Shown: piece by piece, positions 434-13,045 of the stretch | Numbering within the stretch: the first letter of the stretch is position 1 | Layout of the letters: the number at the start of each line of letters is the position of its first letter | Origin: an uncultured Pelagibacteraceae bacterium | GTDB taxonomy: Bacteria; Pseudomonadota; Alphaproteobacteria; Pelagibacterales; Pelagibacteraceae | Length of the DNA stretch: 64,000 nucleotides | Assembly: GCA_902627935.1 (NCBI GenBank) | Contig: CACOLA010000002.1 | Coordinates: forward strand, 186,001 to 250,000 | Direction of reading: 5' to 3' | Program-made: the position numbers and the translations under genes | Notes under the pieces: model-generated | The model's database searches: none | The model's input: the letters and a program-made list of their open reading frames with translations, nothing else | Told to the model about the DNA's origin: nothing

Positions 434-1416
434 TAATTAAATATTTCAACTTAAAAAAGAGCTTAGAAAAACAAATAAATTTATATTTATTACATGGAAA
501 AAACTCTGGTTTAATAGAGGATACAATAAACAATATCTTTAAACCTAATTTTTCTAAAAATATTTTTTATTATGATGAATCAGAATTATTATCAAATATA
601 GAAATATTTAAAGAGAAAATATATAATGTGTCATTTTTCGAAAATGATAAACTAATTATTATCAATAGAGGCTCGGATAAACTAGTAAGTTTAATCAAAG
701 AATTAATTGAAAAGAAAACTAAAGATTTAAAAATTATTATAAAGTCTGATGCTTTAGAAAAAAAATCAAAATTAAGAAATTTGTTTGAAAAAAGCAATGA
801 AACAATCATAGTTCCTTTTTACGAGGATGACCATCAAACACTTATGAATATTGCTCAAAAGTTTTTTTCTCTAAAAAAAATAAAAATAACACCAGAAAAT
901 ATTAACTTGATTGTTAGTAAGTCGATGGGAAATCGAATTAACCTGAAAAATGAGTTAGAAAAAATTGATAATTTTAGTAAAAAAAAATTATCAATTAATC
1001 ATGAAGAAATATTAAAACTTACTAATTTGGCAGAAAATTATAATTTTTCTGAATTAGTAGATTCTTGTCTTGCAAAAAATAAAAAGAAAACTTTAAATAT
1101 CTTAAATGAAAATAATTCCTCGAATGATGAAAATATAATAATTATTAAAACATTCTTATTCAAATTAAAAAGATTGAAAAAAATCAAAGAAAAATTAGAA
1201 AATGAAAAAAATGCCGATCATATTATTTCATCATTTAGACCTCCCATCTTTTGGAAGGACAAAAATATAATCAAACAACAATTAGAGGTTTGGTCATTAA
1301 ATCAAATAAAAGCATTAATAAAGAAAGTAAATGATTTAGAACTTTTAATTAAAAAAAATTCTCTAATATCAAATCAATTAATCAACAATTTTATTCTAGA
1401 AAAAATAAAAAATTAA
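430..1416 (+). CDS. holA: DNA polymerase III subunit delta
   Basis: 328 residues, close to the usual delta length. Delta opens the beta sliding clamp as part of the DnaX clamp-loader complex. The N-terminal region shows the family-like start YLLHGKNSGLIEDTI (about residues 18-32), followed by a mixed alpha/beta region and a helical C-terminal collar typical of clamp loaders. The ATG overlaps the lptE stop by 4 bases, so the two are translationally coupled. The stop overlaps the convergent parB stop. The lptE-holA-parB order is standard in Alphaproteobacteria. The sequence is divergent and lysine/asparagine rich, as everywhere in this genome. Confidence 0.85.
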   Translation: MIIKYFNLKKSLEKQINLYLLHGKNSGLIEDTINNIFKPNFSKNIFYYDESELLSNIEIFKEKIYNVSFFENDKLIIINRGSDKLVSLIKELIEKKTKDLKIIIKSDALEKKSKLRNLFEKSNETIIVPFYEDDHQTLMNIAQKFFSLKKIKITPENINLIVSKSMGNRINLKNELEKIDNFSKKKLSINHEEILKLTNLAENYNFSELVDSCLAKNKKKTLNILNENNSSNDENIIIIKTFLFKLKRLKKIKEKLENEKNADHIISSFRPPIFWKDKNIIKQQLEVWSLNQIKALIKKVNDLELLIKKNSLISNQLINNFILEKIKN

Positions 1417-2255
1417 TAATTCTGCTTAATTATTTCAATAATTTTGTTTAATTGATCTATATCACTGTATGAGAATGTAATGGTACCTTTATTTCTTTTG
1501 CTATTTTTTATAATAACACTTAAACCAATTTTTTCTGATATTGAATTCTCTAACTCCTTAATATTTGCATCTTTAAATCTACTAATTTTATTTTTTTTGA
1601 TTTTAAATATCTTAACAAAACTTTCAGCTTGTCTTACAGACAATTTTTTTTCTACGATTTTGTCTGCGATAAAAGCAGCATTATCAAGACCTACTAAAAT
1701 TTTAGCATGACCTGCTGTAAGTTTTTTATTTTCAACTAGTTTTGTAACCTCATCTGGTAGAGTTAATAATCGTAACGAGTTCGTAATATAACTTCGACTC
1801 TTACCAATAAATTTAGATACTTTTTCTTGATCATAATTAAAATCATTAATTAATCTTTTATAACCTTGGGCTTCTTCGAACGGATTTAAATCGTGCCTCT
1901 GGACGTTTTCTACAATAGCAAATTCAAGAGATTTAAGATCATCAGCTTCTGTAATTACAACAGGTACATCATGCAAACCCGCTCTTTGAGCTGCTATCCA
2001 TCTTCTTTCACCTGCAATTATTTCAAACTTTTCTTTTTCAGTATCTGATTTCCTAACAATAATGGGTTGGATAATTCCTCTTTCAGAAATTGAATTAGTT
2101 AAATCCTTTAAATTTTCTTCATCAAAATTTTTACGAGGCTGATATTTGTTTGGTATCAAATGTGAAATAGATAATTTATTTTTTGTCTCTGATATTTTAG
2201 TTTCACCAATTAAGGATGATAAACCTCTTCCTAAACCCTTTTTTATCTTATTCAT
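1413..2255 (-). CDS. parB: Chromosome-partitioning protein ParB
   Basis: 280 residues. ParB loads at parS, spreads as a CTP-dependent clamp and with ParA segregates the origin region. The N-terminus has the GLGRGLSSLIGE signature, then the ParB/Srx domain with NKYQPRKNF and the CTP-binding motif GERRWIAAQRA (about residues 81-91), a helix-turn-helix region around residues 128-155, and a short C-terminal dimerisation part. It overlaps parA by one base and lies downstream of mnmG-rsmG-parA. A matching parS site is present inside rsmG (3632-3645). Confidence 0.95.
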   Translation of the reverse strand: MNKIKKGLGRGLSSLIGETKISETKNKLSISHLIPNKYQPRKNFDEENLKDLTNSISERGIIQPIIVRKSDTEKEKFEIIAGERRWIAAQRAGLHDVPVVITEADDLKSLEFAIVENVQRHDLNPFEEAQGYKRLINDFNYDQEKVSKFIGKSRSYITNSLRLLTLPDEVTKLVENKKLTAGHAKILVGLDNAAFIADKIVEKKLSVRQAESFVKIFKIKKNKISRFKDANIKELENSISEKIGLSVIIKNSKRNKGTITFSYSDIDQLNKIIEIIKQNY

Positions 2256-3049
2256 TAAGCAGCACTTCCTATTTTATTTTCTTGATTAATGAACTCACTT
2301 GTAAAACTGTAGTATGATTTACTTCCTGGACAATTTTTGTCATATATAAGAACTGGAACTCCATGTGACGGCGCTTCGGATAATCTTACATTTCGGGGGA
2401 TAACTGTTTGGTAAACTTTATCTTTAAAATAATCTCTAGCTTCTTGTTCAACTTGAGAAGAGAGTTTATTTCTTCGATCATACATTGTTAAAAGTATACC
2501 TTGTATGTCTAAATTTGGATTAAGATTTTTTTTAATTCTATCGATGGTTTTCATCAGTTGCGTTAAGCCCTCAAGTGCAAAAAATTCTGTTTGAAGTGGT
2601 ACTAATAAAGAGTTTGAAGCCACTAAAGCCATTACAGTTAGCAAACTGAGCGATGGTGGACAATCTATAAGTATATAATCGTATAATCCTTTAGAATCGT
2701 TTAAATATGAGGTTAATTTGACCTTTAATATAAATGCTCTATCACTATCACCGGCGGTCTCAACCTCTAATCCTGACAAATCTACATTTGATGATATTAA
2801 ATCAAGATTTTCAAAGTTTGTTTTTTTTATTACGTTTGAAATTGACATTGTCCCATTAAGTATTCCATAAATTGTTTGATCAGATTGAGAGTTGTTGGAT
2901 AATCCTAATCCTGTAGTAGCATTTCCTTGAGGATCTAGATCAATTACTAAAATTTTTTTACCAAGTTGAGATAACGCTGATGCTAGATTTATTACAGTTG
3001 TTGTTTTTCCGACCCCACCCTTTTGATTTATAATTGAAATTATTTTCAT
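2255..3049 (-). CDS. parA: Chromosome-partitioning ATPase ParA (Soj)
   Basis: 264 residues. This is a cytoplasmic, nucleoid-binding Walker-type ATPase whose ATP cycle is driven by ParB-parS complexes. The deviant Walker A motif KGGVGKTTT starts at about residue 10, with DLDPQGNATTGLG (A') and LIDCPPSLSLLT (Walker B region) following in the expected order. It lies between rsmG (4-base ATGA overlap) and parB (1-base overlap), the conserved origin-proximal par operon. Confidence 0.96.
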   Translation of the reverse strand: MKIISIINQKGGVGKTTTVINLASALSQLGKKILVIDLDPQGNATTGLGLSNNSQSDQTIYGILNGTMSISNVIKKTNFENLDLISSNVDLSGLEVETAGDSDRAFILKVKLTSYLNDSKGLYDYILIDCPPSLSLLTVMALVASNSLLVPLQTEFFALEGLTQLMKTIDRIKKNLNPNLDIQGILLTMYDRRNKLSSQVEQEARDYFKDKVYQTVIPRNVRLSEAPSHGVPVLIYDKNCPGSKSYYSFTSEFINQENKIGSAA

Positions 3050-3693
3050 GAAACTTTCTTTTTTATTTTTTTAATATTTAATATAAATGAGTCGTTACTC
3101 GTTAAACTTTTTTTTTCTTCGTAATCTAAATCCCACTCTTGAAGTGTTTCATTAAGAACTTTTCTTCCACTACTGCCCATAAAAAAAATAATATTTTTAT
3201 ATTTTTTAAAATTTTTATTAACCAGTTCTAAAATAACCGGCATTGGTTTAAAAGCCCTAGACATTATCGTTCCCGTTTCAATATCATTTAGAAAAAAAAT
3301 ATCTTTTTGAATAATTTGTGTATTTAAATCTAATTTTTTGGAAACTTCCCTTAGGAAAACACATTTGTGATAACTTTTTTCATATAGGTTTACTCTCATA
3401 TTATTTCTTATTTTTTTCATCACTATTGCCACTATTAAACCAGGCATACCACCCCCTGAGCCTAAATCTGAGGTTGTATTACTATTTAAATCAACATAAT
3501 CAATTATTTGTGCAGAATCTATTATATGTCGCTCCCTAATTACCTCTTTTTCGATTGTTTTTTTGCTTATTATGTTAATCTCCTGATTTTTTTGTTGTAT
3601 CATTGAGATTAAGCTCTCTAACTCATTACAAGTTTCACGTGAAACATTTAAATTGGAAATTTTAGAGTAAGAATTTAAAATTAAGTTGTCCAT
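3046..3693 (-). CDS. rsmG: 16S rRNA (guanine-527-N7)-methyltransferase RsmG
   Basis: 215 residues. The enzyme methylates N7 of G527 of 16S rRNA using S-adenosylmethionine. The SAM-binding loop is visible as DLGSGGGMPGLIVAI (about residues 76-90), and the family motif NVSRET lies near residues 15-20. The DNA coding for NVSRET is itself a perfect parS palindrome, a feature of gidB genes next to the origin in other Alphaproteobacteria. The gene is coupled to mnmG by a 1-base overlap and to parA by a 4-base overlap. Confidence 0.94.
   Translation of the reverse strand: MDNLILNSYSKISNLNVSRETCNELESLISMIQQKNQEINIISKKTIEKEVIRERHIIDSAQIIDYVDLNSNTTSDLGSGGGMPGLIVAIVMKKIRNNMRVNLYEKSYHKCVFLREVSKKLDLNTQIIQKDIFFLNDIETGTIMSRAFKPMPVILELVNKNFKKYKNIIFFMGSSGRKVLNETLQEWDLDYEEKKSLTSNDSFILNIKKIKKKVS
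3632..3645. promoter_or_regulatory. parS: parS centromere site inside rsmG
   Basis: GTTTCACGTGAAAC is an exact 14-base palindrome matching the core of the parS consensus. It is embedded in the rsmG coding sequence, 0.6-2.2 kb from parA and parB and about 8.3 kb from the proposed oriC. ParB is expected to load here. I saw only this exact copy in the window. Confidence 0.93.
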
Positions 3694-5564
3694 TAAGCTA
3701 TATGCTTAATAGACTTTCTTTTGACATGTGACAACAAAATATATACAGCTGCAGGAGTAATTCCATCGATTCTGAGAGCTTGACCCATAGTTTTTGGCTT
3801 TATTTCCTTAAACTTTGCCTTTACCTCATTAGATAATCCAGAAAATTGATCATAATCAATACTTTCAGGTATAGATAGATTTTCATCCCTTTTAAAAGCT
3901 ATTATATCAGCTTTTTGTTTTTTCAAATATCCACGATAATGTGAATTGATTTCTAGCTGCTCATCTATTTCTATGCCATAATATTGGATTTCAGGCCAAA
4001 TACCTCTTATTTTAGCCATATCGACATTTTTTTGAGCTAAAATTTCCTCTGCTGATCTAAAAACCCCGTCTTTAGCGATTTTAATTCCAAAATGATCTGC
4101 TTTAGATGGGGAAATGTTTAAATTAGACATTTGAAAAGAAATTTTACCCAATTTCTCAAATTTGTCCTCAAATATTCTTTGCCTATAATTGGATATTAGT
4201 CCTATTTTAATTCCCTTATTAGTAAGCCTTAAATCTGCATTATCAGATCGGAGACTTAATCTATACTCAGCTCGAGATGTAAACATCCTATAAGGCTCAG
4301 CAACACCCTTAGTTACTAAATCGTCAATCATGACTCCGATATATGCATCTGAACGATCCAAAATAAAAGGCTCCATATTTTTTAAGGATAGGGCAGCATT
4401 AATCCCAGCTATAAGACCTTGCGCTGCAGCTTCTTCATATCCAGTGGTTCCATTGATTTGACCAGCAAGATATAAGTTTTTAATTTTTTTGGTTTCCAAT
4501 GTAAGAAAAAGTTCTCTAGGATCTACATAATCATATTCTATAGCATAACCTGGTCTAATCACTTTAACATTCTCTAAACCACTGATATTGTTAAGAATTT
4601 CATGCTGAACAACCTCAGGTAATGATGTAGAAATCCCGTTTGGGTAAATTGTATGGTCATTTAGGCCTTCTGGCTCTAAAAATATCTGATGTCTAGTCTT
4701 ATCTGAAAATTTTACTATTTTATCTTCAATCGAAGGACAATATCTAGGTCCTACACCCTGAATACTTCCAGAGTACATAGCGCTTTTAGATAAATTTTTT
4801 TCAATTATCCTATGAACCTTTTCGTTCGTATAAGTCATCGAACATGAAACTTGATTATTTAAATTTGTTTTAGTTAAGAAAGAAAAAAAATAAGGATCAT
4901 CATCTGCAAATTGTTTTTCGAGGTTTACAAAATTTATAGATCTAGAATCCAATCTTGGAGGTGTGCCAGTTTTTAATCTACCAATTTTAAAATTATATTT
5001 CTGTAATTGTTCGCTTAAACCTGTACTTGGCTTTTCATTAAATCGACCAGCAGGTGTTTTCTCATCTCCAATATGTATCAATCCGTTTAAAAATGTTCCG
5101 GTTGTTAGAATTAACTTGTTGCAACTTACATTGTTACCATTTAGCGTCTCAAACCCACTTATTTGATTATTCTTAAAAATAAACTTAATAACAGGATCTG
5201 AAAAAATCGTTAAATTACAATAGTTTACAAGTTTTTCTTGCATATATTTACGATATAATGATCTATCAGATTGAGTTCTTGGTCCTCTAACAGCTGGTCC
5301 TCTGCTTCTGTTTAACAGTCTAAATTGTATTCCAGACTTATCGGCCACGTCAGCCATTACTCCATCTAAAGCATCAATTTCTCTAACCAAATGACCTTTG
5401 CCTAAACCGCCGATAGCAGGATTACATGACATTTCACCTATGGTATTTTTATTATGAGTGAATAGGGCAGTGTTAATTCCAAGTCGAGCAGATGCAGCTG
5501 CTGCTTCACAACCTGCATGTCCTCCACCAATTACTACTACGTCATAAGATAAATCTTTTTTCAT
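3693..5564 (-). CDS. mnmG: tRNA uridine-34 carboxymethylaminomethyl-modifying enzyme MnmG
   Basis: 623 residues, the normal length. With MnmE it forms the complex that installs the cmnm5 group on U34 of certain tRNAs, using FAD, NADH, methylene-tetrahydrofolate and glycine. The FAD dinucleotide motif [10 protein letters not shown] is at about residues 13-22; [20 protein letters not shown] and the C-terminal MnmE-binding helical domain ending in LLSHVKRK are also present. It is the first gene of mnmG-rsmG-parA-parB; mnmE lies 116 bases upstream on the same strand. Confidence 0.97.
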
Positions 5565-7071: not shown

Positions 7072-7917
7072 ATGATAATTTGGCTTGCTTCATATCCAAA
7101 AAGCGGAAATACATGGATTAGAATATTTTTAACTAATTTGTTATTTACTGAAGAAAAATCTCAGTTAGATATAAACAAAAAAGGTATTATTCAGTTTCCA
7201 TTAAGATCTCATTTTGCAAATTTAGTTGATAACTCCCTAGATTTGGAAGAAATTACAAACAAATGTATTTCTGCACAAAACAGAATTAATTCGGACAGCA
7301 AAATAAAAATTTTTAAAACACATAGCGCCCTTTGGAAACAACCCAGTACAGGAAAATCATTTACAAACTTACAAAATACACAAGGAATAATTCATATTGT
7401 TAGAGATCCGAGAAATGTCATAACATCTGTATTAGATTATTTTAATATGAAGAATTACGAAGAAGCCTATAAATTTCTAATTAATTCTGATAATATTCTT
7501 GGTGGAGATGAACGTGATAATGGAGTTCCAACTATAATCTCTTCTTGGTCAAATCACTATAATTCTTGGAAACATTTTAACAAAAATTACTTACTAATTA
7601 AATATGAAGACTTGATTAAAGAACCAGAAAGAGAATTTTTTAAAATAACAAACTTTTTAACATCAATTACAGAATTTAATTTTAACAAACAAAAAATTTT
7701 AAAAACCATTGATGCTTGTAATTTTGAAAATTTTACAAAACAAGAAGGAAAGTCGGGGTTTATTTATAATTCAATAACAAATAAAAATCTTAATAAAAAA
7801 TTTTTTAGGCTAGGCCCCAAAAATAATTGGCAAATTTTACTAGATTCTAAAATAAGACAAAGTATTGAAACTTCTTTCAAACTTGAAATGGAAGAACTTG
7901 AATATTTGCCTAATTAA
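7072..7917 (+). CDS. PAPS-dependent sulfotransferase family protein (copy 1)
   Basis: 281 residues. Sulfotransferase-fold proteins move a sulfuryl group from 3'-phosphoadenylyl sulfate to a hydroxyl or amine. The 5'-phosphosulfate-binding motif SYPKSGNTW is at residues 7-15 and the 3'-phosphate-binding motif [11 protein letters not shown] is near residue 110. [10 protein letters not shown] segment and the central KYEDL motif also match the family. The substrate is unknown. It is paralogous to the gene at 33257. It sits on the opposite strand between mnmE and rho, and its stop overlaps the rho stop by 4 bases, so it looks inserted into an otherwise conserved block. Confidence 0.85.
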
Positions 7918-9307: not shown

Positions 9308-9826
9308 TTAACCTAATTCTTTTGCAAATTCATCTACTTTTGACCAATCTGTAAATTCATAAGATTGGGATGTGTCCGTTGGGCCGTTTGTTAAAAACAT
9401 AATGAATTTAATAACATATTTATCAAGGAAACCATAATTTGGATAATCTACTCTGCCAGCAAACACTCCAATTTTTTTTGGTCTCCAATTAGAAATTTTT
9501 AAAAATTTTTTAATATAGGGATTGGTTTCTGGAGTATCTTTTTTTAATTTTCTAGCAACAACATTTACAGAAAAAAAAACACTTTGTTTTTGATCTAAAA
9601 CACTCTTATTTAATCTAATAAATTTATAGAGCTTTTTAGAGTGTTTTCCATATCTAATACTAGCTCCTATAATTATTTTATTATAGGTTGACAGATCAAG
9701 CTTTGTTGCATCATCCAACGATACGATTTCAGTCTCATTATTTTTGTCTAAAGAATTTGATATTCGATTACAAATAGATTTTGTATGTCCATCTGTACTA
9801 GAATAAACTATTAAAGTGCTATGCAT
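9308..9826 (-). CDS. hemG: HemG-type flavodoxin, protoporphyrinogen IX dehydrogenase
   Basis: 172 residues. HemG is an FMN flavodoxin-like enzyme that oxidises protoporphyrinogen IX and passes electrons to membrane quinones. The FMN phosphate loop is at the start, VYSSTDGHTKSI (residues 7-18), followed by IIIGASIRYGKHSKKLYKFI and FSVNVVARK, which match HemG proteins better than plain flavodoxins. The position directly downstream of hemH and hemE supports a haem role. The other common alphaproteobacterial enzyme, HemJ, usually lies next to hemE/rho and is absent here. Confidence 0.8.
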   Translation of the reverse strand: MHSTLIVYSSTDGHTKSICNRISNSLDKNNETEIVSLDDATKLDLSTYNKIIIGASIRYGKHSKKLYKFIRLNKSVLDQKQSVFFSVNVVARKLKKDTPETNPYIKKFLKISNWRPKKIGVFAGRVDYPNYGFLDKYVIKFIMFLTNGPTDTSQSYEFTDWSKVDEFAKELG

Positions 9827-9835
9827 ATTAGAATG

Positions 9836-10948
9836 CTATGATTTGTTCATCTCTAGTTTTGGCATCTCTTGATAATATTTTTTATCAAGTTTATATTCTA
9901 TGTCCTCTTTATCCTGCGCAGAACCCTCTGCTTGGGTAAAAGTATATTTTGCAAAGTCTTTACACCAGTCTTTATTAGTATTTAAACATTCTACTGGATA
10001 TATATTGCCACCTAATTCTTTCGCTTCATTTACTAGTTCATGACCTAATTCGTCTGTTGTCTCTAAACAATCAGCGACAAAGCTAGGTGAATATATTGCT
10101 ATTTCTTTTTTTCCCTCTGATATTAATTTTTTAACCACATCTTCAGTATAAGGTGTTATCCATTCCTCAGATCCAAAACGACTTTGAAAACTCATCAAGC
10201 ATTGTTCAGGTTTTATATTTTTAAGATTTTTTGTGATAAGACAAAACGTTTCATAACAATGACGATAGTAATCATCTCCTTTGTTAACAACTCTTCTTTT
10301 TTGCATTCCATGGAAAGTTATTATTAAACTATCAATTTTCTTACCTTGTTTTATTAATTCATCTAATTTTTGATCAACTTGATTGACTGAATTATCTATA
10401 AAAGCATGTGTTCTATGAAAATTTGTTATCACCTCAAAAGTTGGTATTTTCACTCTTTTAGATAATTCTTTTGCTAATGCGTCTATACCTGAGGCTATTG
10501 TGCTTTCAGAGTATTGTGGAAACATTGGTATTACAAGAAGTTTTGTTGCACCAACTCCTTTTTTCAAATCCTCTTCCCAGCTATCGTAAACTTCATTTAC
10601 GTAAGGAGGAGATAGTAAAAAAGCATGATTGACCTCGACAAATCCTTCGGGATCTATTTTTTTTAGTTCCTCTCCAACAGTTTTTGTAAAATCTCTAGTG
10701 TTTGTAATTAATGGAAAGTTTTTGCCGTCCCAAATTCTTGCATAAAGCTTTGCTGATTTTTGTGGTCTAAAAGGTAACACAAAGCAATTTAAAATTATTT
10801 TCCAAAGCCAAGGATTAATGTCGATAACTCTAGGATCTCCTAAAAATTTTCGTAGATATTTTCTTAAAGCTTTGGTGGTTGGCTCTGAAGGTGAGCCTAA
10901 CTGTACAAATACAACTTTTGTTTTTCTTTTTGGGTGTGTGTAATCCAT
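9836..10948 (-). CDS. hemH: Ferrochelatase
   Basis: 370 residues. The enzyme inserts Fe2+ into protoporphyrin IX, the last step of haem synthesis. Visible family signatures are VQLGSPSEP near the N-terminus, the catalytic histidine in ITFHGMQKRR, QSRFGSEEW, and the signature YSPSFVADCLETTDELGHE. About 35 charged C-terminal residues extend beyond the core. It sits one base downstream of hemE and is followed by hemG, forming a late haem operon beside the origin. Confidence 0.94.
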   Translation of the reverse strand: MDYTHPKRKTKVVFVQLGSPSEPTTKALRKYLRKFLGDPRVIDINPWLWKIILNCFVLPFRPQKSAKLYARIWDGKNFPLITNTRDFTKTVGEELKKIDPEGFVEVNHAFLLSPPYVNEVYDSWEEDLKKGVGATKLLVIPMFPQYSESTIASGIDALAKELSKRVKIPTFEVITNFHRTHAFIDNSVNQVDQKLDELIKQGKKIDSLIITFHGMQKRRVVNKGDDYYRHCYETFCLITKNLKNIKPEQCLMSFQSRFGSEEWITPYTEDVVKKLISEGKKEIAIYSPSFVADCLETTDELGHELVNEAKELGGNIYPVECLNTNKDWCKDFAKYTFTQAEGSAQDKEDIEYKLDKKYYQEMPKLEMNKS

Positions 10949-10949
10949 A

Positions 10950-11951
10950 TTAATAATCTTTTACTGTTTTTACCAAATAATCCATCATGCCAGGGTCTGT
11001 TTCTGGCAAAACTCCATGTCCTAAATTAAAGATATAAGGATGATCTTTAAATATATCTAGGTATCTTTTTGCCTCTTTTTTTAATGTCTGTACATCGGTC
11101 AGCAATATCTTAGGATCCATTCCTCCTTGAATGGGTATATTTATTTCTTTTTGTATTTTCACAGGATCAATTTCATAATCAATACAAATTGCATCAGGGC
11201 CTACAAAATCACAATATTTTTTATAATTCTTTATATTTCTAGGAAAACATATAACTGGTGTATTTAGAGATTTTATATATTTTACTAAATTAAAAGTTGG
11301 ATTGTATATATAGCTTGGTAAATCTTTATCTTCTAGCAGTCCAGCCCAACTATCAAATATTTGAATTACATTTGCGCCATTATCTATTTGATTTTTAACA
11401 TGAATTTTTAAAAATTTTTCAATAATAATTAACAAATGATCTATTAAATTTTTATTTTCAAAAAAATCTTTTTTTAATTTTTTTTTAGGAGATTGTTCAT
11501 TTATCATGTAAACTAAAATAGTCCAAGGAGCTCCAATAAATCCAATAGTATTTTTATCTTTTAAAATATTATTATTACTTACGTTCTTTATAGCTTCATA
11601 AATTTTTTGAACTCTTTGAACAAAATCAGTTTCTTTTACCTCAGATATTTTATCCAAATCAAGCTTCTCTAAAATAGGACCAAAATTTTTTTTAAATTCT
11701 ATGTTTTGATTTAAACCATAAGGTAACATTAATATGTCTGAAAAAATAATTGCTGCATCAAAATTATACCTTCTAAGTGGTTGTAAAGTAATTTCAGTAG
11801 ATAAAATTGGATTTAAACATAATTTAATGAAATCTTTATTTTTAGATCTTATTTCCCTAAATTCAGGAAGATATCTACCTGCCTGTCTCATTATCCATAT
11901 AGGTTTTATTTTGGTATTCTTATTAACTATTATTTCGTGTAGAGGTGTCAT
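10950..11951 (-). CDS. hemE: Uroporphyrinogen decarboxylase
   Basis: 333 residues. It removes four carboxyl groups from uroporphyrinogen III to give coproporphyrinogen III. The signatures KPIWIMRQAGRYLPEFRE (residues 17-34) and GFIGAPWTI are clear, with IQIFDSWAG and HGVLPETDP further on. It is the first gene of the minus-strand hemE-hemH-hemG-rho series and borders the proposed replication origin; hemE at oriC is a well-known alphaproteobacterial arrangement (Caulobacter, Rickettsia). Confidence 0.96.
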   Translation of the reverse strand: MTPLHEIIVNKNTKIKPIWIMRQAGRYLPEFREIRSKNKDFIKLCLNPILSTEITLQPLRRYNFDAAIIFSDILMLPYGLNQNIEFKKNFGPILEKLDLDKISEVKETDFVQRVQKIYEAIKNVSNNNILKDKNTIGFIGAPWTILVYMINEQSPKKKLKKDFFENKNLIDHLLIIIEKFLKIHVKNQIDNGANVIQIFDSWAGLLEDKDLPSYIYNPTFNLVKYIKSLNTPVICFPRNIKNYKKYCDFVGPDAICIDYEIDPVKIQKEINIPIQGGMDPKILLTDVQTLKKEAKRYLDIFKDHPYIFNLGHGVLPETDPGMMDYLVKTVKDY

Positions 11952-11992
11952 ATTAAAATAATATATATTATTATTGTATTAGTATTATGTTA

Positions 11993-12001
11993 TGTGAATA
12001 A
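11993..12001 (-). promoter_or_regulatory. DnaA box 1 (TTATTCACA)
   Basis: An exact match to TTATNCACA on the minus strand, embedded in the palindrome GTTATGTGAATAAC (11989-12002) at the hemE side of the proposed origin. Confidence 0.7.
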
Positions 12002-12014
12002 CGTTAATTATTTT

Positions 12015-12023
12015 TTATTAACA
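12015..12023 (+). promoter_or_regulatory. Near-consensus DnaA box (TTATTAACA)
   Basis: One mismatch (position 6) from TTATNCACA. It overlaps an inverted repeat GTTAAT/ATTAAC (12003-12008 and 12017-12022). The same nonamer recurs at 12207-12215. Confidence 0.4.
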
Positions 12024-12130
12024 TTATATATACAGTTTAATAACATCATAAATCCAATAATATTGTTTAAAATGAAGCTTTTTAGTATTTTACTAAATTT
12101 AATGTATTATTTTACAAACCGATTTATTAT

Positions 12131-12139
12131 TGTGAATAA
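12131..12139 (-). promoter_or_regulatory. DnaA box 2 (TTATTCACA)
   Basis: A second exact TTATTCACA on the minus strand, flanked by two copies of the direct repeat TTATTTTACAA (12107-12117 and 12145-12155). Confidence 0.7.
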
Positions 12140-12161
12140 AACCCTTATTTTACAACAATAA

Positions 12162-12176
12162 TTAATCAATATTTAA
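12162..12176. promoter_or_regulatory. CtrA-type TTAA-N7-TTAA element in oriC
   Basis: The sequence TTAATCAATATTTAA fits the CtrA half-site pattern exactly. CtrA sites occur in the Caulobacter and Rickettsia origins. In DNA this AT-rich the pattern also arises by chance roughly every 1-2 kb, and I cannot tell from this window whether the organism has CtrA. Confidence 0.3.
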
Positions 12177-12206
12177 ATTGAGTAATTTTATTAAAATAAT
12201 ACAAAT

Positions 12207-12215
12207 TTATTAACA
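12207..12215 (+). promoter_or_regulatory. Near-consensus DnaA box (TTATTAACA)
   Basis: Same one-mismatch nonamer as at 12015-12023, placed 9 bases before the start codon of the PPDK regulator; it marks the right edge of the proposed origin. Confidence 0.35.
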
Positions 12216-12223
12216 GCTTATGC

Positions 12224-13045
12224 ATGAGTAATACATTTCAAATTTATTTAATTTCAGATTCAACAGGAGAAACTTTAGATAGAATTTTCTTAGCGCTAAA
12301 GGCTCAATTTAAAAATATTAACTATAATGTTAATGAATTTCCATTTACAAGGACTGAAAATCAGGTTCTTAAAATTCTTGATGAAGCAAAGAAAAATGAC
12401 AATTCTATAATTTTATACACTATAGTAGATAACGGTCTTGCTAAATTTTTGGCTAATCATAGTGAAGATAAGGGTCTTCCGTGTTTCGGAGTTCTTGGTA
12501 ATCTTATTTTGAGTTTTTCAAAGTTATTAAATCAAAAAGCTTCTCATGAACCAAGTGGGCAATATGTGTTAAATGAAGAATATTATCAAAGAATTGAGGC
12601 AATACAATTTACAATGAATCATGATGATGGAAATTTATTACATGATGTTGATAAATCAGATATTGTTTTGTTAGGTGTTAGTAGGACAAGCAAAACACCA
12701 ACATCAATTTATTTAGCAAATAAAGGATATAAAACTTCTAATATCCCAATAATAAACGATAACTCAATTCCAAAAAAATTAAGAGACAACCCAAAGATTA
12801 GTTGTGTTGTGGGATTAAACACAGAAGCATCAAGATTGGTTGATGTAAGAAAAAATCGTATGAATTCACTTAGGGAAACAGATAATAAAAAATATACAAA
12901 TATTGAAAACATACAAAAAGAAATTGATAATGCAAAAAGAACTTTCAAAAAATATAGTTGGCCCAGCATTGACGTTACAAGAAAGTCAGTAGAAGAGACA
13001 GCAGCTTCAATTATAAAAATTTATGAAATATACAAACAAAAATAA
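12224..13045 (+). CDS. Pyruvate, phosphate dikinase regulatory protein (DUF299 kinase/phosphorylase)
   Basis: 273 residues. This family both inactivates PPDK (or PEP synthase) by ADP-dependent phosphorylation of a threonine and reactivates it with phosphate, controlling pyruvate/PEP flux. The N-terminus YLISDSTGETLDRI (residues 8-21) and the P-loop-like GVSRTSKTPTS (about residues 149-159) are diagnostic. It flanks the proposed oriC and overlaps maf by 23 bases, the order seen in many Alphaproteobacteria (regulator-maf-aroE-coaE-dnaQ). No ppdK is in the window. Confidence 0.93.
   Translation: MSNTFQIYLISDSTGETLDRIFLALKAQFKNINYNVNEFPFTRTENQVLKILDEAKKNDNSIILYTIVDNGLAKFLANHSEDKGLPCFGVLGNLILSFSKLLNQKASHEPSGQYVLNEEYYQRIEAIQFTMNHDDGNLLHDVDKSDIVLLGVSRTSKTPTSIYLANKGYKTSNIPIINDNSIPKKLRDNPKISCVVGLNTEASRLVDVRKNRMNSLRETDNKKYTNIENIQKEIDNAKRTFKKYSWPSIDVTRKSVEETAASIIKIYEIYKQK

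Follow-up and report, generated by a model that had tools for sequence, protein, structure and literature searches.

The DNA analysed here, called the window throughout, is a 64-kb stretch (186001-250000 of contig C2) of a SAR11 draft genome comprising 14 contigs and 1.04 Mb at 87% completeness; the closest relatives with a name belong to the Pelagibacteraceae. Within it the divergent genes hemE (URO-D) and COG1806, which encodes the PPDK regulator (Kinase-PPPase), are separated by a 272-bp spacer with an AT content of 85% (15% G+C), against about 71% in the window as a whole (Table 1). Leftward from the spacer the gene order is hemE, ferrochelatase, a HemG-type gene, rho, a sulfotransferase-like gene, mnmE, mnmG, rsmG, parA and parB, and rightward it is COG1806, maf, aroE, coaE, dnaQ and secB. 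An earlier note on this DNA had described a very AT-rich spacer between divergent genes, with a hem-rho-mnm-par block on one side, maf-aroE-coaE-dnaQ on the other, and had named parS, parAB, mnmG and rsmG as common neighbours of such origins. Both the flanking genes and the two gene orders were recovered: parAB, rsmG and mnmG occupy 1413-5564 and, together with a one-mismatch parS-like site, lie 6-11 kb from the spacer. The spacer gave no match in Rfam.

Table 1. Coordinates of the features in and around the hemE/COG1806 spacer (positions in the window).
Feature	Position	Strand	Basis or remark
parB and parA	1413-3049	-	gene order
parS-like palindrome AGTTTCACGTGAAACA, one mismatch, inside rsmG	3631-3646	+	8.3 kb from spacer
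hemE (URO-D), left border gene	10950-11951	-	profile and gene order
Intergenic spacer hemE/COG1806, very probable oriC	11952-12223		border genes, box counts, conservation in relatives
Nearly AT-only stretch past the triplets, candidate unwinding region	11952-11976		sequence; position relative to triplets
TAT TAG TAT TAT, DnaA-trio-like triplets, 4 bp from B1	11977-11988	+	TAN-run counts
DnaA box B1, TTATTCACA	11993-12001	-	word match; among the spacer's most conserved columns
DnaA box B2, TTATTAACA	12015-12023	+	word match and alignment
B3 position, ATATATACA, weak here, better in many relatives	12026-12034	+	alignment; 11 bp past B2
DnaA box B4, TTATTCACA; TTATTAACA in most relatives	12131-12139	-	word match and alignment
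TTATTTTACAA with weakly conserved TTTTACAA, after B4	12145-12155	+	alignment
DnaA box B5, TTATTAACA	12207-12215	+	word match and alignment
COG1806/PPDK regulator (Kinase-PPPase), right border gene	12224-13045	+	profile and gene order

DnaA boxes and adjoining triplets in SAR11 spacers

The two exact DnaA boxes previously reported (B1 and B4) and two near-boxes are all present in the spacer. The word TTATTMACA occurs 74 times in the 1.04-Mb draft genome, four times in the spacer and at most twice in every other 272-bp stretch. The RDHTT motif, with which DnaA reads the DnaA box, is retained in SAR11 DnaA.

The spacer was compared with 46 further SAR11 loci, 17 from single-cell or metagenome assemblies and 29 from other genomes, a set that may contain same-species duplicates; the resulting 47 spacers come from the window's own and the less distant SAR11 genera. 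The divergent hemE/COG1806 pair is retained in 46 of 46 other loci, with spacers of 260-297 bp and 80-88% AT. Box-like words align at fixed sites, B1 on the minus strand, B2 and B3 on the plus strand, B4 on the minus and B5 on the plus strand, and are found with at most one mismatch in 39 (B1), 28 (B2), 27 (B3), 37 (B4) and 36 (B5) of the 47 spacers. A loss of both exact boxes in close relatives, which the earlier note had named as evidence against an origin, is thus not what the comparison revealed. B2 and B3 are spaced by 11 bp, about one helical turn, and some species carry a further site at an equal step. Information per column amounts to 0.8-1.3 bits in the boxes against a background of 0.43, and TTATTMACA totals 97 over all spacers where 3.3 are expected. 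The commonest box word in SAR11 spacers is TTATTAACA and not the textbook TTATCCACA.

Conservation is not uniform. In a minority clade (L042, L043 and L048) the boxes are placed elsewhere in the spacer, six of the 47 spacers retain just one of the five aligned sites, and B1 is degraded in some spacers, those of the near relatives L003 and L020 among them. Every spacer contains at least four box words within one mismatch, at whatever position. The direct repeat that had been noticed around B4 was confirmed in part: TTATTTTACAA is present at 12107 and 12145, both copies on the plus strand, but only the TTTTACAA core after B4 recurs in relatives. In the window's own genus most spacers have this core at a fixed distance past B4; it carries 0.63 bits per column, which is below the boxes.

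On the hemE side of B1 the plus strand carries a conserved block of tandem TAN triplets. Runs of at least three TAN are found there in 33 of 47 spacers, the corresponding share being about 8% in shuffled copies and 5% in 24-base windows elsewhere in the same spacers, and TAG is counted 77 times in the block against 11.5 expected. DnaA-trios have been defined as at least three NAN triplets no farther than 16 bp from a box, and the window triplets with their 4-bp gap agree with this rule of the basal unwinding system (BUS) (PMC8287927). The triplet strand has its 3′ end towards B1, matching the orientation implied by the base numbering in PMC10721633 and also that at the R1 end of Escherichia coli oriC. 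The block hence resembles the DnaA-trios of the BUS, and we infer that unwinding would take place at the triplets by DnaA loaded from B1.

Replication-strand polarity around the spacer

Five complete relatives (G017, G063, G043, G009 and G035) were sampled as 20-kb stretches around the chromosome; they share ancestry and partly gene order, and do not amount to five independent tests. In all five, leading-strand genes reach their highest share when the origin is placed no more than about 35 kb from the spacer. With the origin at the spacer this share is 0.59-0.68, a level that random flips of the stretches reach at P ≤ 0.018.

GC skew, a measure that the earlier note had proposed, supports the spacer in three of these relatives and does not in two. 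Strand-corrected third-position GC skew breaks 14 kb from the spacer in G017, 10 kb in G063 and 38 kb in G009 (t = 4.6-6.8 against 95% scan nulls of 3.1-3.5). In G035 the value at the spacer is 1.8, not significant, and the best scan position is 144 kb away. G043 shows a weak and reversed t of -2.8 at the spacer and a best scan value of 3.2, below its null of 3.4; gene orientation in this genome fits the usual origin, yet its strand-corrected skew is absent or slightly reversed. The resolution of the skew is about 35 kb and dnaA is only 60-72 kb off, so that skew alone separates the spacer poorly from dnaA. For the window's own contig a side effect of 0.036 ± 0.011 was obtained at the spacer, the right-hand 73 kb being too short to fix a break point.

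The dnaA gene of the source genome is on contig C2, 65 kb to the left of the spacer. In same-genus (Pelagibacter-like) complete relatives it is 60-65 kb away on the hemE side, and in G009 and G022 it is found on the COG1806 side, at 72 kb. Such similar distances on either side would be the outcome of inversions placed symmetrically around an origin at the spacer.

A probable CtrA-free origin of a known class and its rivals

Gene context, the unique box cluster, the conservation in 46 loci and the polarity in complete relatives support the claim of the earlier note that the spacer is the origin, and very probably it is the single chromosomal oriC. Judged by its sequence, it belongs to the known alphaproteobacterial hemE/COG1806 class of origins, in a CtrA-free form, and is not a new kind. 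It has the hemE and COG1806 borders, an AT content above the genome average, more DnaA boxes than any equal-length stretch of the draft genome, and a switch in replication-strand polarity (gene orientation in five of five relatives, GC skew in three of five). The borders of the Caulobacter and Rickettsia origins are hemE and COG1806 (PMC1914354), in agreement with the earlier note. No paper mapping a SAR11 origin to this spacer was found in the open-licence literature, and an earlier listing in the DoriC database is possible. Nor did that literature yield a report of the triplet block, of the box word TTATTAACA or of boxes in the constant B1-B5 arrangement.

Could the boxes be chance products of an AT-rich spacer? 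The base composition alone would invite this explanation, but shuffles that preserve dinucleotides yield on average 0.083 TTATTMACA where four are observed, none of 5000 reaching four, and 0.008 TTATTCACA where two are observed. Since in addition the sites align over 47 spacers, chance was rejected and has a negligible probability. It is also very improbable that the boxes serve only in DnaA control of the promoters of hemE and the PPDK-regulator gene, the origin lying elsewhere, for example at dnaA. Such a reading could draw on two promoter-like matches that overlap B1 and B4, and on dnaA often marking oriC in other bacteria. Against it, the 4 kb around dnaA hold a single TTATNMACA and no cluster of boxes, on which ground an origin at dnaA was rejected; four of five genomes have a higher leading-strand gene share with the origin at the spacer than with it at dnaA, while in G043 the share at the spacer is lower by 0.002; and the conserved triplets by B1 are not a promoter feature.

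A different proposal adds to the oriC reading rather than opposing it, namely that the origin also carries the divergent hemE and COG1806 promoters and that DnaA binding couples initiation to transcription. The divergent genes leave their promoters no other room, and the overlaps with B1 and B4 and the excess of promoter-like matches, 11 against 6.1 in shuffles, point the same way, but matches to a consensus carry little weight in AT-rich DNA, and we consider this dual role evenly balanced.

Regulatory sites of other alphaproteobacterial origins were also sought. TTAA-N7-TTAA (CtrA) sites number two in the window spacer and average 0.77 over the 47 spacers against 0.63 in shuffles, so no excess was found. 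A scan of OmpR-type regulators, four from G043, three from the draft genome and one from G017, gave matches to the PhoB model only, and no ctrA was found among them; CtrA control of the spacer was rejected on this basis, and because no ctrA gene was found initiation is probably not gated by CtrA. Pelagibacter has been described as lacking a ctrA ortholog (PMC2877005), and CtrA sites are typical of alphaproteobacterial oriC without being universal, several published origins having none (PMC1914354, PMC4468827). The IHF word WATCAANNNNTTR is absent from the window spacer and present in eight of the 47 spacers, and HU/IHF-family genes are present; GANTC (CcrM) sites are not enriched in the spacers. 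As a separate observation, a shortened OmpR-type regulator (186-191 aa), whose DNA-binding part can be recognised but which shows no receiver part that matches well, occurs about 20 kb from oriC in two genomes (L211, G000:C2 near 177777; L208, G043:C1 near 623847).

Caulobacter crescentus Cori has equal border genes, an AT-rich spacer and several DnaA boxes (PMC1914354), but it differs by its five CtrA sites, its IHF site and its weak DnaA boxes of the G and W types (PMC1914354, PMC4468827), whereas for SAR11 neither a ctrA gene nor an excess of CtrA sites was found, nor an IHF match in the window spacer. The origins of Rickettsia prowazekii and Wolbachia likewise have a hemE border, AT-rich DNA and DnaA boxes (PMC1914354). 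They differ in that CtrA sites are reported and that the COG1806 side has been lost in Wolbachia; spacers of SAR11 are shorter, at 260-297 bp, and their length is kept. With the BUS of Bacillus subtilis the spacer shares a DnaA box and adjoining tandem central-A triplets whose 3′ to 5′ reading direction leads away from the box (PMC8287927, PMC10721633), but in SAR11 a single strong box and not a co-oriented pair stands by the triplets, and these putative trios are TAT/TAG/TAA instead of mostly 3′-GAT-5′. The R1 end of Escherichia coli oriC, in the mnmG-mioC spacer, has on the same strand an AT-rich side with TTATTAGG followed by the box as TGTGGATAA, while its gap before the box is longer and GC-richer, it has GATC sites and its border genes are others. 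IHF and Fis sites are also part of Escherichia coli oriC.

Taking the spacer as oriC, a mechanism can be proposed in which DnaA-ATP would bind B1 (TTATTCACA, minus strand) and pass from there onto the adjoining plus-strand TAN triplets, whereby the AT-rich hemE-side stretch would open. B2/B3, 11 bp and about one helical turn apart, would together with B4 and B5 collect DnaA and give the oligomer its shape; the helicase would then be loaded and forks depart both ways, along the par/rsmG/mnmG arm and the maf-aroE-coaE-dnaQ arm. More tentatively, and with the balance tipped slightly against it, SAR11 may possess a reduced CtrA-free origin with a lineage-specific box TTATTAACA, in which A replaces C at position 6, fixed B1-B5 and a one-box unwinding module, at which DnaA alone sets initiation.

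Significance and alternative gene pairs beside the probable origin

SAR11 are among the most abundant marine bacterial groups, and their replication has been estimated from the origin-terminus coverage gradient (PMC9589681). GRiD places the origin at dnaA (according to PMC7852909), and tools with this assumption would misplace the SAR11 origin by about 65 kb. A mapped CtrA-free origin would be a small model of replication that may be timed by DnaA alone, and the spacer could be the start point for a SAR11 replicating plasmid.

In the hemE-rho interval beside the spacer (9308-10948 of the window), SAR11 genomes carry either HemG and a type A ferrochelatase or HemJ (UPF0093) and one of type B, and these alternative pairs split the window, L002, L003, L007, L008, L013, L015 and L017 from L004-L006, L009-L012, L014 and L016. 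The two ferrochelatase types are only 32-35% identical. Type A of the window and that of L008 are 94.6% identical despite only 71% identity between the hemE genes of the same two, which suggests that the pair has been swapped between species by recombination. A third ferrochelatase, accompanied by HemJ, is found in L018. The sulfotransferase-like gene (7072-7917) between mnmE and rho is on the opposite strand, and genes similar to it (34-39% identity) occur elsewhere in contig C2 and in relatives.
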